64,000 nucleotides of DNA from Natronosalvus caseinilyticus (GTDB lineage: Archaea; Halobacteriota; Halobacteria; Halobacteriales; Natrialbaceae), in assembly GCF_017357105.1 (NCBI RefSeq), contig NZ_CP071596.1:3596001-3660000 (forward strand), in the 5' to 3' direction. Shown here piece by piece: positions 23,250 to 59,192 of the stretch. A program made the translations under genes and the position numbers. Under the pieces are notes generated by a model, which was not told the origin of the DNA, ran no database searches, and saw only the letters and a program-made list of their open reading frames with translations. Position 1 is the stretch's first letter, and every line of letters starts with the position of its first letter.

Positions 23250-24308
23250 ATGGAATCTCAGCCACGCGACGTTCTCGTTTCACTCCTCGAGACGCCCTCT
23301 CCGTCGGGGTACGAAACCCGCGGCCAGCGCGTCTGGATCGACTACGTCTCGCAGTTCGCGGACGAGGTCAGGACCGACGCCTACGGCAACGCGATCGCCG
23401 TTCACGAGGGCGACCCCGACGGCCCCGAAATCGCCCTGACGGGCCACGCCGACGAGATCGGCTTCATCGTGCGCTCGATCGACGACGACGGCTTCCTCAA
23501 CGTCGGACGCATCGGCGGCAGCGACCCCTCCGTCGCTCGCGGCCAGCACGTGACGGTCCACGCCGAGGACGGGCCCGTCGAGGGCGTGATCGGCCAGACG
23601 GCGATCCACCTGCGCGAGGACGACGACGAGCCCGAAATTTCGGACCTCTGGATCGACATCGGCGCCGAAGACGAGGACGAAGCAGCCGAGCGAGTTGCCG
23701 TCGGCGACCCGATCACCTTCTCCTCGAGCGTTTCCTGGCTCTCGGAGACCCGACTGGCGGCCCGCGGCATGGACAACCGCGTCGGCACCTGGATCGCCGC
23801 CGAGGCGTTCCGCCGGGCCGTCGAGAGTGGGACCGACGCCACCGTCTATGCCGTCTCGACCGTCCAGGAAGAGGTGGGAACAAAAGGGGCGAAGATGGTC
23901 GGCTTCGACCTCGAGCCGGACGCCGTAATCGTCGTCGACGTCGGTCACGCAGTCGACTACCCCTCTGCACCCAGCGAGAAGACGAGCCAGATGGAACTGG
24001 GCGGTGGGCCGGCACTCGGCCGCGGCAGCACCAACCATCCAGTCCTCTTCGACGCCCTCCGAACGGTGGCCGACGAGGAAGAAATTGAGGTCCAGGTCGA
24101 GGCCCTCGGCCTCGGCACTGGCACGGACGCCGACAGCTTCTTTACCGCCGCGGGGGCGATTCCCTCCCAGGTCGTGAGCGTCCCCAACCGGTACATGCAC
24201 ACCCCGGTGGAAGTGGTCGATACCGAGGATCTCGAGGACATCGCCGATCTGCTGGGCTCGTTCGCGAGTTCGGCCCACGAGTTCACGCCGTTTTCGGTGG
24301 ATCTCTGA
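23250..24308 (+). CDS. M42 family metallopeptidase (TET-like aminopeptidase)
   Basis: 352 residues. The M42 metal ligands are visible in order: GHADEIGF (His, Asp), GMDNRVGTW (bridging Asp), VQEEVGTKGA (general-base Glu and ligand), VVDVGHAVD (Asp) and RYMHTPVE (His). PSPSGYETRGQ is the typical start. Members form large dodecameric TET assemblies that trim peptides after the proteasome. A second M42 gene at 30716-31780 differs in length and details. The start at 23250 is preceded by an AT-poor region with a caaatcac box; the preceding in-frame sequence lacks coding character. Confidence 0.93.
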   Translation: MESQPRDVLVSLLETPSPSGYETRGQRVWIDYVSQFADEVRTDAYGNAIAVHEGDPDGPEIALTGHADEIGFIVRSIDDDGFLNVGRIGGSDPSVARGQHVTVHAEDGPVEGVIGQTAIHLREDDDEPEISDLWIDIGAEDEDEAAERVAVGDPITFSSSVSWLSETRLAARGMDNRVGTWIAAEAFRRAVESGTDATVYAVSTVQEEVGTKGAKMVGFDLEPDAVIVVDVGHAVDYPSAPSEKTSQMELGGGPALGRGSTNHPVLFDALRTVADEEEIEVQVEALGLGTGTDADSFFTAAGAIPSQVVSVPNRYMHTPVEVVDTEDLEDIADLLGSFASSAHEFTPFSVDL

Positions 24309-24371
24309 TCGGTATCGGCGCCTCGAGCGGGCGTTGACCCGGACCGGCAATCGCTCGAGAAACGACCGCAG

Positions 24372-24378
24372 TATATAA
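24372..24378 (+). promoter_or_regulatory. Strong TATA box (TATATAA) upstream of a structured non-coding region
   Basis: TATATAA at 24372-24378, within cagtatataagcgg, in a 339-base stretch without a gene. Initiation would be near 24400-24403, exactly where the first long stem of the adjacent structured sequence begins. This is the clearest TATA box in the window without a protein-coding gene behind it. Confidence 0.65.
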
Positions 24379-24399
24379 GCGGCGTCGTCGCCTAGCTCG

Positions 24400-24590
24400 G
24401 GTGCGTACCTTTAGTCCCCGACCGAGTAGACCCACTTCGGGTGCGATGACCGTTCGGCGAACCCGGGTACGCGACAGCCGTTCGGCGGTTTCACCGCCAC
24501 GACAGGTAGTGGACCTACAACCCACCCGCCCGGCACGAGGGTTAGCCAGCAGACGCGGCGCGCCGCCACGGGATGATGCTGGACGTTAGT
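24400..24590 (+). ncRNA. Candidate structured RNA, family not recognised
   Basis: This stretch follows a TATATAA box and is rich in stems: GCGTACC (24403-24409) pairs with GGTACGC (24466-24472), followed one base later by ACA. GGGT...ACCC, enclosing CCG-TT-CGG with flanking GATGA and CGA, looks like a kink-turn. GGCGGT-TTC-ACCGCC (24484-24498) is a perfect hairpin. CCAGCA...TGCTGG encloses a GCGGCGCGCCGC core further on (about 24543-24586). Kink-turn plus ACA would suit an H/ACA guide, but the first pocket lacks a proper 3' guide half. No RNase P or SRP RNA signature is present. The 3' end is uncertain. Confidence 0.45.
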
Positions 24591-24647
24591 GTTCCGGGTG
24601 ACACACTATTCGAACGAGCGACATCTACGCCGGGCCGAATTAGATGC

Positions 24648-25943
24648 TTACCGTGCGATGTCGTCAATCCAACCAACGAGATCCGAGACGATGCACTCCG
24701 CGACGTTTCCACCGAAGTAGAGGCCCATCGGATTCGCAGGAGTGAACCCCTTCTGGAGGAAGTGATCGAGACCCTCGTAGAACTCGACACGACTCCCGTC
24801 CGCGAGGTCCACGGTTCGCCACTTCTCGAATTCGTCGCGGAACCACGCGGCGAGTTCCGGTTGCATCTCCTCGTCCGCCCGGCCGGCCTTCAGAACGAAG
24901 CACGGAACGTCCAAACTGCTCGCCGTACCCGCAGGGTCGTAGGCTCCGACGCTGCGGTGCCAGATCCCCGGACGTCCCCAGATCGTTTCGTCATCGGCGT
25001 AGTCGCCCTCGGACAAGCGTCGAACCGTCTCACGTTCGCGCTCGAGTTCGGCCTCCTGGTCCTCGCTGAGGTTGCCATCCGGCTCGAACTCGTAGCGCAG
25101 GATCGCGAGGTGGTCAGGATCGAGTGTCGAGTCGGCCCGCGCATCGAGAGCGACGATGCCTGTGACGTCACCGTGGCGAGCGGCGATTCGCGGGGCGCAC
25201 ATCCCTCCCTGGCTGTGTCCTGCGACGAATACGGCGTCTTCAGCTACTTTGTCGGTCGTAACGAGTTCGTCCACCGCCGCGACTGCGTCGTTGACGACGA
25301 CGGTGTCGAGCGTGTAGTTCTCGTCCTCGACCTCGTGTTTCGCGAGCCGTTTCTCGTACCGGAGCGTCGCGATCCCCTGGCTAGCGAGCCCCCACGCGAG
25401 GTCTTTGAGAATCTTCGACGCGCCGTCGGTTCCGTCCAGGTCGTGGATGCCGGCACCATGGACGAGCAGAACGGCCGGGAACGGGCCGGTACCGTCGGGA
25501 ATCGCGATAACGCCCTCGAGGTTCACGTCTCCGGTGTCCACAGTCACGTTGCGCTCGCTGAATGCGCTCCTGTCGACGTATCCCGGGATCTCGTACGTGG
25601 AGGAGAACGAGAACCCAGTGATGCCGGTGCCGTCGTCGATGTCGATGCTCGCCCATTCAGTACCGTCCTCGAATTCGAGTGTGACGTTCGTGCCGGTTTC
25701 ATCCACGTCCACCTCTACCTCGCCCACACCCTCGAAATCGCCGTACTGTGCATAGAGCCCCAGCCAGTACAACTCGAGTGCATCCTCGGCGTCCATTGGC
25801 TCCTGAAATTCGTCGGGAAACGACTCGACGGCCGCCGTTCGACCGTCCGCAGTGAGCAGGTCGGTCGCCTGGGCGAACGACCCGTCCCCAAACCGTGTAA
25901 CGAACTCACGTACCGTATCCTCGGCGTTTCTCGAGGGAACCAT
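24648..25943 (-). CDS. Alpha/beta hydrolase with N-terminal DUF3887-like domain
   Basis: 431 residues. Residues about 1-115 resemble a DUF3887/NTF2-like domain (FVTRFGDGSFAQATDLLTADG). The rest is an alpha/beta hydrolase with VLLVHGAGIHDLDG (oxyanion loop), VAGHSQGGMCAP (Ser nucleophile), LKAGRADEEM (Asp) and YEGLDHFL (His), so the triad is complete. Such fusions are esterases or peptidases of the BAAT/dienelactone type; the substrate is unknown. No signal peptide is visible at the chosen ATG (25943), although the DUF3887 domain is often exported. The promoter is AT-rich (cgatttatacgatgg) and suggests a leaderless start. Confidence 0.87.
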   Translation of the reverse strand: MVPSRNAEDTVREFVTRFGDGSFAQATDLLTADGRTAAVESFPDEFQEPMDAEDALELYWLGLYAQYGDFEGVGEVEVDVDETGTNVTLEFEDGTEWASIDIDDGTGITGFSFSSTYEIPGYVDRSAFSERNVTVDTGDVNLEGVIAIPDGTGPFPAVLLVHGAGIHDLDGTDGASKILKDLAWGLASQGIATLRYEKRLAKHEVEDENYTLDTVVVNDAVAAVDELVTTDKVAEDAVFVAGHSQGGMCAPRIAARHGDVTGIVALDARADSTLDPDHLAILRYEFEPDGNLSEDQEAELERERETVRRLSEGDYADDETIWGRPGIWHRSVGAYDPAGTASSLDVPCFVLKAGRADEEMQPELAAWFRDEFEKWRTVDLADGSRVEFYEGLDHFLQKGFTPANPMGLYFGGNVAECIVSDLVGWIDDIAR

Positions 25944-56369: not shown

Positions 56370-59192
56370 TCACTCCTCGAGCAACCGCTTCAGCCGGTCG
56401 AGTTCGGTGAGCGCCTCCACGGGGGTCAGGTGGGCCAGGTCGAGCGCCCGGAGCTCGGCCGCGACGTCGCTCGGGTCGTCGCCGCCGTCTGAACTTACGG
56501 TCGGCGCGGGAGTCGGCTCGACGTCGCTCGAGGTGGTGGAGGTGGTATAGCCCGCATCACCGTCGCCACCGTCAACCAGCGCGCGAGCACGCTCGACGAC
56601 CGTGTCGGGAACGCCCGCCGCCGTCGCCACCTCGACGCCGTACGAGCCAGCGGCCGCGCCGGGAGCAATCTCGTGGTCGAAGATGACGTCGCCGCCCTCC
56701 TGGGTCGTCTCGAAGTGACGAGTGAACGCGCCCTCGAGTTCGTTGGACAGTTCGGTCAAGGGGTGGTGGTGGGTCGCAAAGAGCGTCAGCGCCCCGATTT
56801 CGTCGTGGAGGTGTTCGGTGATCGCACGGGCGATGGCGAGGCCGTCACTCGTCGAGGTGCCACGGCCGACCTCGTCGAGGAGGACGAGCGACCGCTCGTC
56901 GGCCTCCCGGAGGATCGTCGCGAGTTCGTCCATCTCGACCATGAACGTCGAGCGCCCGCCCGCGATGTCGTCGCTGGCGCCGACTCGAGTGAAGATGCGC
57001 TCGACCGGCGTGAGCGTCGCGCCTCGAGCGGGTACGAAACTCCCCACCTGCGCCAGCAGGACGATTTGAGCCACTTGGCGCATGTACGTCGACTTTCCGG
57101 ACATGTTGGGCCCCGTGATGATCGCCAGCCGATTCTCGGCGTCGAAGCGCCCGTCGTTCGGGACGAACGACTCCTGGGTTCGTTCGACGACGGGGTGACG
57201 GCCGGCCTCGATTTCGATGCGGGAGGCGTCTCCATCGCTGTCGCCCCCAGACTCCAGCACCTCGGGCCGACAGTAATCGTACTCGGCGGCGACGGTCGCC
57301 AGCGAACACAGCGCGTCGAGCGCCCCGAGGGCGTCGGCGAGCGTCTGGACGCGCTCGACTTCCACGCCCACGTCGCGACGAATCCGACAGAACAGGTCGT
57401 ACTCGCGCTGGTCGGCCCGACTCTCCGCGCCAACGATCTCGTCCTCACGTTCCTTCAACTCGGGCGTGACGAAGCGCTCGGAGCGCTTGAGCGTCTGTCG
57501 GCGCTGGTAGTCTTCCGGGACGGCCTCGAGGTTCGGGTTCGTCACCTCAATGTAGTAGCCGTGGACGGAGTTGTAGCCCACTTTGAGCGAGTCGACGCCC
57601 GTCCGCTCGCGTTCGCGGTCCTCGAGGTCGTCGATCCACTGCTTGCCGTCCCTGGCCGTCTCCCGGAGGGTATCGAGGCGGTCGTCGTAGCCGTCGGCGA
57701 CGATTCCGCCTTCCGTAATCTCGTGGGGCGGGTCGGTGACAATCGCCCGGTCGATCAGCCGACGGACGTCCTCGAGCGGGTCGAGCGCCTCGCGGATCCG
57801 TTCCAGTCGGCCTGCCTCGGCGTCCTCGAGCGCCTCCCGAATCTCGGGGACCACGGCGAGGGTGTCGCGCAACGAGCGCAGGTCACGCGCGTTGGCTCGC
57901 TCCCGGGAAATGCGCCCGATGAGCCGCTCGAGGTCGTATACGCCCGTCAGCGCGCCCTGGATCGCCTCTCGCGTGCGAGGGTCTCGGGAGAGTTCCTCGA
58001 CGGCGTCGAGGCGGTCGTCGATCCGCTCGGCCTCGAGCAGCGGTCGCCGGAGCCAGTCCCTGAGTTTGCGGCCGCCGAGGGCGCTCGCCGTCTGGTCGAG
58101 GACGCCGACGAGGGTGGCCTCCTCGCGGCCGTGGACGCCCCGCGGTTCGAAGAGTTCGAGGCTTCGGACGGCGACGGCGTCGAGGAGCAGGTACTCGCGG
58201 GGGTCGTACCGGCGGAGTCGCGAGAGGTACTCGAGGCGCGGGCGGTCTGGTTCGCCGGATTCGTCGCTTTCGTCGTCTTCGCCTTCGTCTCCGTGTTCGT
58301 TTTCGTCTTCCTGGTGCTCGTGCTCGTCCGGTTCGCCGTCGTCCGTCTCGCCAGGGTCGTTCTCGTCCGCGTTCTCGACCTCGTCCACAGCACCCTCGAC
58401 GCCCCCGCGAACGTACTCGGCATAGGCGAGCACGGCGCCGCAGGCGCGAACCTCCGCGTCGCTCGCGACGAGCGCCTCCGCTCGAGCGACGTACGTCTCG
58501 AGAAGGTCCGTGGCGCGCTCGAGGTCGAACGCCTCGGGGTCGAACGGCGTGACCATACACCGCTCCGGGAGGATCTCGTCTGGGGCGTTCGGGCCGAGGA
58601 CCGCCTCGGCGGGAGTGAAGCGGCTAATCTCGTCGGCGATTCGTTCGGCGTCGCTGGCGCTGGTGGTCAGGAAGTCGCCGGTCGAGACGTCAAGGAGGGC
58701 GAGGGCGACGTCTGTGTTGTCGTTGGCGTCCGGGTTCGGGTTCACGGAACCGTCGCCTACGGCGACCGCCGCCACGAAGTTGTTGTCGTCGCTCGAGAGC
58801 AGTTCGTCCTCCGTGAGCGTTCCGGGCGTAATCACCCGGGTTACCGCCCGTTCGACGACGCCCGCCGACTCGCCCGGTTCCTCGACCTGGTCGGCGATGG
58901 CGACCCGGTAGCCGGCCTCGAGCAGGTCCTCGACGTAGGTGGCGGCATTGTCGACCGGAATCCCGGTCATCGGGTACTCGCCGGTCGAGTCCTCGCGGCT
59001 GGTGAGGGTGAGCTCGAGCAGCCGCGCGGTCGTCTCGGCGGCGCCGCCGAAGGTCTCGTAGAAGTCGCCGACCTGGAAGAGGACGATGGCGTCGTCGTAC
59101 CGGGCACAGAGGTTGTGGTACTGGGCCATCATCGGCGTGAGTTCCGCGCGCCGCTCGGACATCGATTCGGGGGGACCAAGCGCGGAGTCCAT
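56370..59192 (-). CDS. mutS: DNA mismatch repair protein MutS
   Basis: 940 residues, mismatch recognition ATPase. The N-terminal mismatch-binding F-x-E is F44-Y-E46 ([10 protein letters not shown]). The Walker A is GPNMSGKS with Lys near 700, Walker B and signature in [21 protein letters not shown], and the C-terminal HTH follows. An acidic insertion of about 50 residues rich in Glu, Asp and His (about 276-325) interrupts the connector/lever region; it is not in bacterial MutS. The start ATG at 59192 is preferred over a GTG 21 bases upstream. MutL is not next to it in this window. Confidence 0.95.

Follow-up and report, generated by a model that had tools for sequence, protein, structure and literature searches.

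Genomic context and promoter of the locus

The locus lies in a window of 64,000 nucleotides from the genome of Natronosalvus caseinilyticus, a haloarchaeon of the Natrialbaceae, and all positions given below are those of this window. It occupies a gap without a gene, whose length of 339 bases had been given correctly in the initial annotation of this stretch (24309-24647). Judging from their translations, the flanking genes encode a peptidase, ending at 24308, and a hydrolase in convergent orientation, ending at 24648. All parts of the locus are carried on the plus strand, namely a TATATAA box, a CCTAG element, a first hairpin (HP1), a spacer of 50 nt (24477-24526) and a second hairpin (HP2).

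The TATA box (24372-24378) ends 24 nt before the HP1 base, a distance that had already been judged right for a promoter. It is followed at about -10 by CCTAG (24391-24395), which contains a conserved TA and which we take to be the proximal promoter element. When 113 distinct loci were aligned at the HP1 base, the same pattern appeared at a fixed distance from the hairpin. The A/T share reached 0.89, 0.96, 0.97 and 0.83 at -27 to -24, 0.81 and 0.67 at -32/-31, and 0.96 and 0.78 at -9/-8, against a background of about 0.35 in this alignment. Many loci also show a short T run after the ACA of HP2 (T share of 0.65, 0.68 and 0.64 at three positions), which the window copy lacks, unlike many of its relatives. 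A scan for sigma-70 promoters and terminators found nothing, as expected for an archaeon. Because none of the 80 spacers of at least 45 nt contains a TATA-like word, HP2 probably shares the promoter of HP1, in which case the spacer would be transcribed as well.

Two hairpins with the anatomy of box H/ACA guides

HP1 spans 24402 to 24476 and ends in an ACA (24474-24476), the trinucleotide that had been spotted behind the first stem. HP2 spans 24527 to 24603 and likewise ends in an ACA (24601-24603). Both hairpins, on the plus strand, are supported by covariation, covariance-model hits and a guide scan (see below). The RNA runs to about 24603; the initial annotation had placed its end at 24590 and thereby cut off the 3' side of HP2 together with its ACA.

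Each hairpin contains a pocket of two guide strands, UUUAGUC (24410-24416) and GAACCC (24459-24464) in HP1, and GAGGGUUA (24537-24544) and GUUA (24585-24588) in HP2. Above the pocket, the strands carry what we interpret as a kink-turn. In HP1 (24423-24450) it is composed of a 5' GA within CGAG and a 3' GAU-GA within GCGATGAC, and in HP2 (24549-24579) of a 5' GA within GCAGACGCGGC and a 3' GAU-GA within GGGATGATGC. As read from the aligned sequences, these letters vary little or not at all in either hairpin, and the kink-turn-like internal loop proposed earlier proved to be real. The pair beside the kink-turn bulge is kept as well, being G-C in 40 of 40 aligned rows for HP1, and C-G in 38 and G-C in 2 rows for HP2. 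In relatives, ACA or AUA is found 3' of each hairpin. The distance from the start of the 3' guide strand to the ACA, as counted on the alignments, is 14 nt in HP1 and 16 nt in HP2, within the range of about 14-16 nt that marks such guides. Published passages on Pyrococcus propose a target-to-ACA distance of 14-15 nt, which HP2 exceeds by one. Hairpin fold, kink-turn, 3' ACA, pocket complementarity and target-to-ACA distance are all those of archaeal box H/ACA RNAs. The initial annotation had named diagnostic parts of this class, the kink-turn and the ACA, but not the class itself, an archaeal box H/ACA guide RNA.

Covariation supports both hairpins

An alignment of related genomes had been suggested as a check. 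It revealed compensatory changes in the lower and upper stems of both hairpins. For HP1, 95.6% of the cells were paired and 12 of 17 pairs had changed on both sides, compared to a mean of 6.3 in shuffled alignments; the corresponding values for HP2 were 98.6%, 7 of 18 pairs and 2.6. None of 500 shuffles reached the covariation score of either hairpin, and the scores dropped several-fold for most slides of the pairing partner. While these scores were computed on structures that we had named ourselves, RNAalifold recovered largely the same helices in both hairpins unaided. The conserved stems in relatives thus support the earlier suggestion that a structured non-coding RNA follows the TATA box.

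Folding energy alone carried no signal at this locus (z 0.15; 109 of 200 shuffled sequences folded equally well), and the evidence is therefore comparative. Taken by themselves, this energy and the absence of an Rfam match would suit GC-rich stems that arose by chance in an intergenic gap. Given the class-wide conservation, the covariation and the conserved promoter pattern, we regard such an origin as practically negligible.

The Rfam search proposed at the outset returned no match in the window at gathering score and only two sub-threshold matches up to an E-value of 10, none of them a usable match to an Rfam 15 family. For tRNA, tmRNA, RNase P and SRP RNA, neither the family models nor ARAGORN matched at the locus, in agreement with the stated absence of RNase P, SRP and tRNA signatures. 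Elsewhere in the window, ARAGORN called a tRNA-Ala at 58086-58175, where no Rfam tRNA was found at gathering score; this is probably a false call.

Distribution among haloarchaea

A DNA-level search of 61 genomes, the source genome included, detected matches at E<=1 in 59 of them. The distant matches are weak and may represent other loci, and the strong ones form two blocks that coincide with HP1 and HP2. When named genomes were searched for an exact 16-base pattern taken from HP2, 119 stretches were obtained, which together with 53 earlier loci amounted to 172 loci scanned. In 133 of these, 113 of them distinct, both hairpins were present in the same order and on the same strand. One locus at a contig end (L119) contained HP2 only, and 38 contained neither hairpin, being 36 of the pattern stretches and two 23S loci. 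These 36 stretches are mostly bacterial among the matches listed and are thus chance matches to the 16-mer.

Covariance models for the two hairpins were built from 40 rows each, picked for diversity out of the 113 distinct loci. The HP2 model was found in 288 of 292 Halobacteria genomes, covering 76 of 76 genera, and the HP1 model in 115 of 116 Halobacteria genomes and 45 of 45 genera. Both hairpins are nearly always present as a single copy. In a phylum-wide draw of 245 genomes, HP2 was detected in 93; outside the class, its scores were 32-45 bits. One genome (G218) has two copies of HP2 with equal scores (G218:C1:1714775-1714851 and 3469978-3470054). Furthermore, extra weak HP1-like matches of 35 and 37 bits occur at G023:C1:1870297-1870367 and G079:C1:2826544-2826614, and in G023 a 23S match follows on the same strand at about 4.6 kb.

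Among 37 genomes of the Natrialbaceae family that were searched, 11 have an rRNA operon within about 2.5 kb of the guide gene. Seven of these (G008, G019, G023, G030, G032, G034 and G036) have the 23S match on the same contig, while in the other four (L007, L010, L012 and L028) a 5S gene or the end of a 23S gene is present in a locus at a contig end. The same neighborhood was observed at locus L088 from the named genomes. Wherever strands were listed, the guide gene lies on the strand opposite to the operon and points at its 3' end. Several other copies of the guide gene are located near contig ends. In the source genome, the nearest 23S gene is about 399 kb away.

Predicted targets in 23S rRNA

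The source genome contains two 23S rRNA copies as well as genes for Cbf5 and Nop10, each scoring over its own cut-off. We scanned the pockets against 934 uridines of the 23S rRNA and of a 2401-base upstream stretch (L203) that overlaps the 23S start. This stretch stands in for the 16S rRNA, and neither the 16S start nor anti-Shine-Dalgarno words were found in it, perhaps because of the strand or the spelling used. For HP2, the best of the 934 uridines was U1951, around which the pocket pairs with 8+4 bp (GUAAC[UA]UGACCCUC; score of 11.5 versus 8.0 for the next site). For HP1, U2616 ranked first with 5+3 bp (GGGUU[UA]GAC), though narrowly (8.0 versus 7.5), and with a wider pocket the site fell outside the top list. 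In a first scan employing loose pockets and flanks other than rRNA, the expected HP1 site was not listed, and the structure-defined scan listed it by the narrow lead given above. We also considered GUUCGCC[UA]UUAAAGG, found by eye in the 23S rRNA, as a target of HP1 and rejected it: the upper stem would have to open, and the left half is missing in many relatives, which have GGAGAAC in place of GGCGAAC.

With a constant offset of 5, U1951, U1953 and U2616 correspond to Psi1956, Psi1958 and Psi2621 in Haloarcula numbering. A 23S match was obtained in 50 of the 61 genomes, and 30 loci from these were inspected. Both target sites have the same sequence in all 30 loci, hence they offer no variation in which guide-target covariation could appear.

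In print, Grosjean et al. (2008) predicted the hairpins HP1 and HP2 of Haloferax volcanii to guide Psi1956, Psi1958 and Psi2621, and the passages on the guide describe a long spacer between HP1 and HP2 in halobacteria and adjacent hairpins in Thermococcales (PMC2584109). In a later account, the two are classed as Hvo1 and Hvo2a/b (PMC4652768). Compared by description, the RNA reported here agrees with the H. volcanii guide in hairpin order, in the three 23S targets and in the long spacer (PMC2584109, PMC4652768). Stem III of Pyrococcus Pf7/Pab40 has been called clearly homologous to HP2, and stem II apparently homologous to HP1 (PMC2584109); the Pyrococcus RNA differs in its adjacent hairpins and in a third hairpin, whereas two hairpins and a structured spacer are found here.

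Taken together, we assign a probability of about 0.93 to the locus encoding the orthologue of the H. volcanii HP1/HP2 guide, a box H/ACA guide RNA of haloarchaea, with Psi1956, Psi1958 and Psi2621 as its targets. Its kind is already known, and the locus adds an unannotated member in the source genome. The H. volcanii guide is presumably the RNA named sR-h45.

In the H/ACA family, L7Ae binds the kink-turn, and Cbf5, Nop10 and Gar1 bind the stem and the ACA. One RNA of about 200 nt would be transcribed from its own promoter, and each of its two hairpins would bind these proteins in the same manner. The HP2 pocket would then pair with both sides of U1951, leaving the uridine unpaired for conversion into pseudouridine, and U1953 may be its second target, as proposed in print. 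Likewise, the HP1 pocket would pair around U2616 and direct the formation of pseudouridine at this position.

The abstract of PMC4652768 raises the idea that H/ACA-like RNAs take part in gene regulation, and the weak fit of HP1 to its own rRNA site would suit a small RNA that has an H/ACA fold but regulates mRNAs instead of, or besides, targeting the 23S rRNA. We consider this very improbable, as the 23S site of HP2 is clearly the best of all uridines scanned and the pockets belong to the best-conserved positions of this RNA throughout the class, as expected with a fixed rRNA target.

The spacer as an array of hairpins

The perfect stem GGCGGT-TTC-ACCGCC that the initial annotation had pointed out is indeed present at 24484-24498, but it belongs to the spacer and lies outside both conserved hairpins. 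It is the first of two spacer hairpins on the plus strand and was assigned to type B (see below). Sequence and folding point to a weaker second hairpin region at 24505-24526, in the position of type A.

Throughout the 113 spacers compared, we found 0-6 near-perfect hairpins (median of 7 bp) of about 24 nt each, and spacer length fits the line 23.9 x (number of hairpins) + 5.7 (r = 0.94). For a further 37 loci, the folds were inspected by eye. Folding z-scores averaged -2.79 over the 103 distinct spacers with a length of 20 nt or more, compared to -0.36 for equally long downstream stretches (Mann-Whitney p 3e-24). The hairpins fall into two types, classes set by us, which alternate in long spacers, an arrangement seen nowhere else in the sequences examined. 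Type A has the form GG...CC with 8-9 bp and stands after a CANNY linker, and type B has a stem of 5-6 bp, often in the arrangement UC-stem-loop-stem-UC inside an outer stem of 3-4 bp. A symmetric internal loop with at least three outer pairs is present in 29 of 167 hairpins, 16 of these being UC/UC. Because MAFFT misaligned the variable stems, a descriptor scan took the place of a covariance model of the spacer unit. The descriptor of the B-A unit had 27 hits within 8,355 nt of spacer sequence, compared to 31 hits within 2,449,626 nt of other sequence on both strands.

Within the spacers, the descriptor found 27 units in sense and 6 in antisense orientation, an excess that is partly an artefact since the descriptor requires the order B-then-A and a start with GG. 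As this asymmetry is partly built in, counting G.U against A.C mismatches is the better test of the strand. The 38 single mismatches inside spacer stems include 15 of G.U and 1 of A.C, an excess that is expected with selection on the transcribed strand. Against a reading as RNA of this strand, the antisense sequence folds lower in 85 of 133 spacers and the sense sequence in 48.

Related spacers were compared in 39 independent pairs. Of their 581 base pairs, 23 had changed on both sides, where 8.3 would be expected if the sides changed independently, and 20 of these 23 still pair; among the single changes, 52 break and 33 keep the pairing. In the same pairs, stem sites changed at a rate of 0.119 and unpaired sites at 0.208. 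The spacer may be a modular hairpin array, a kind of expansion segment that turns over fast while being kept paired. It might act as a tunable linker or protein scaffold, or guard the guide pockets against misfolding, a tentative proposal to which we give somewhat less than even odds. If it is a structured linker or scaffold, it would set the seating of two H/ACA RNPs on one 23S rRNA.

The spacer hairpins may instead be neutral filler, paired only to leave the guide pockets undisturbed, for which the odds appear about even. Very short spacers do exist. They measure 0-7 nt at L241, from a deep family of the order, and at three loci from outside the class (L242, L243 and L245), while L043 and L223 show that 4 nt occur within the class too. 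From these outgroup and in-class spacers it follows that the array is not indispensable and that adjacency of the hairpins is, as far as sequences tell, probably the ancestral state. The rapid turnover of letters and hairpin number would also suit a filler. On the other hand, two recurrent module types and recurrent linker letters in several families amount to more order than a filler needs.

The array was not found described in the literature searched, and the principal experimental study of the guide (Blaby et al. 2011) may show it; the passages on the H. volcanii guide make no mention of hairpins making up the spacer (PMC2584109, PMC4652768). A taxon-specific, self-folding insert in a conserved RNA is also known from the expansion segments of haloarchaeal 5S rRNA. 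As described in the relevant passages, these comprise one insert type in few genera, whereas here the number of hairpins varies and the insert occurs in most of the class loci sampled (PMC7812874). We take this resemblance as a likeness only, without homology.

Implications for haloarchaeal genomes

Our data describe a guide RNA shared by nearly all haloarchaea but lacking a match in Rfam 15, and the two covariance models could annotate it in any haloarchaeal genome. In the transcriptome of Haloquadratum walsbyi, H/ACA RNAs are reported, in the passage concerned, as not identified (PMC5496347). Because HP2 is present in nearly all genomes of the class (288 of 292), one H/ACA RNA is probably present in this organism and was missed. 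The part worth following is the hairpin array. If it holds true, a small guide RNA would contain a structural insert that expands, and its many natural variants could be compared.
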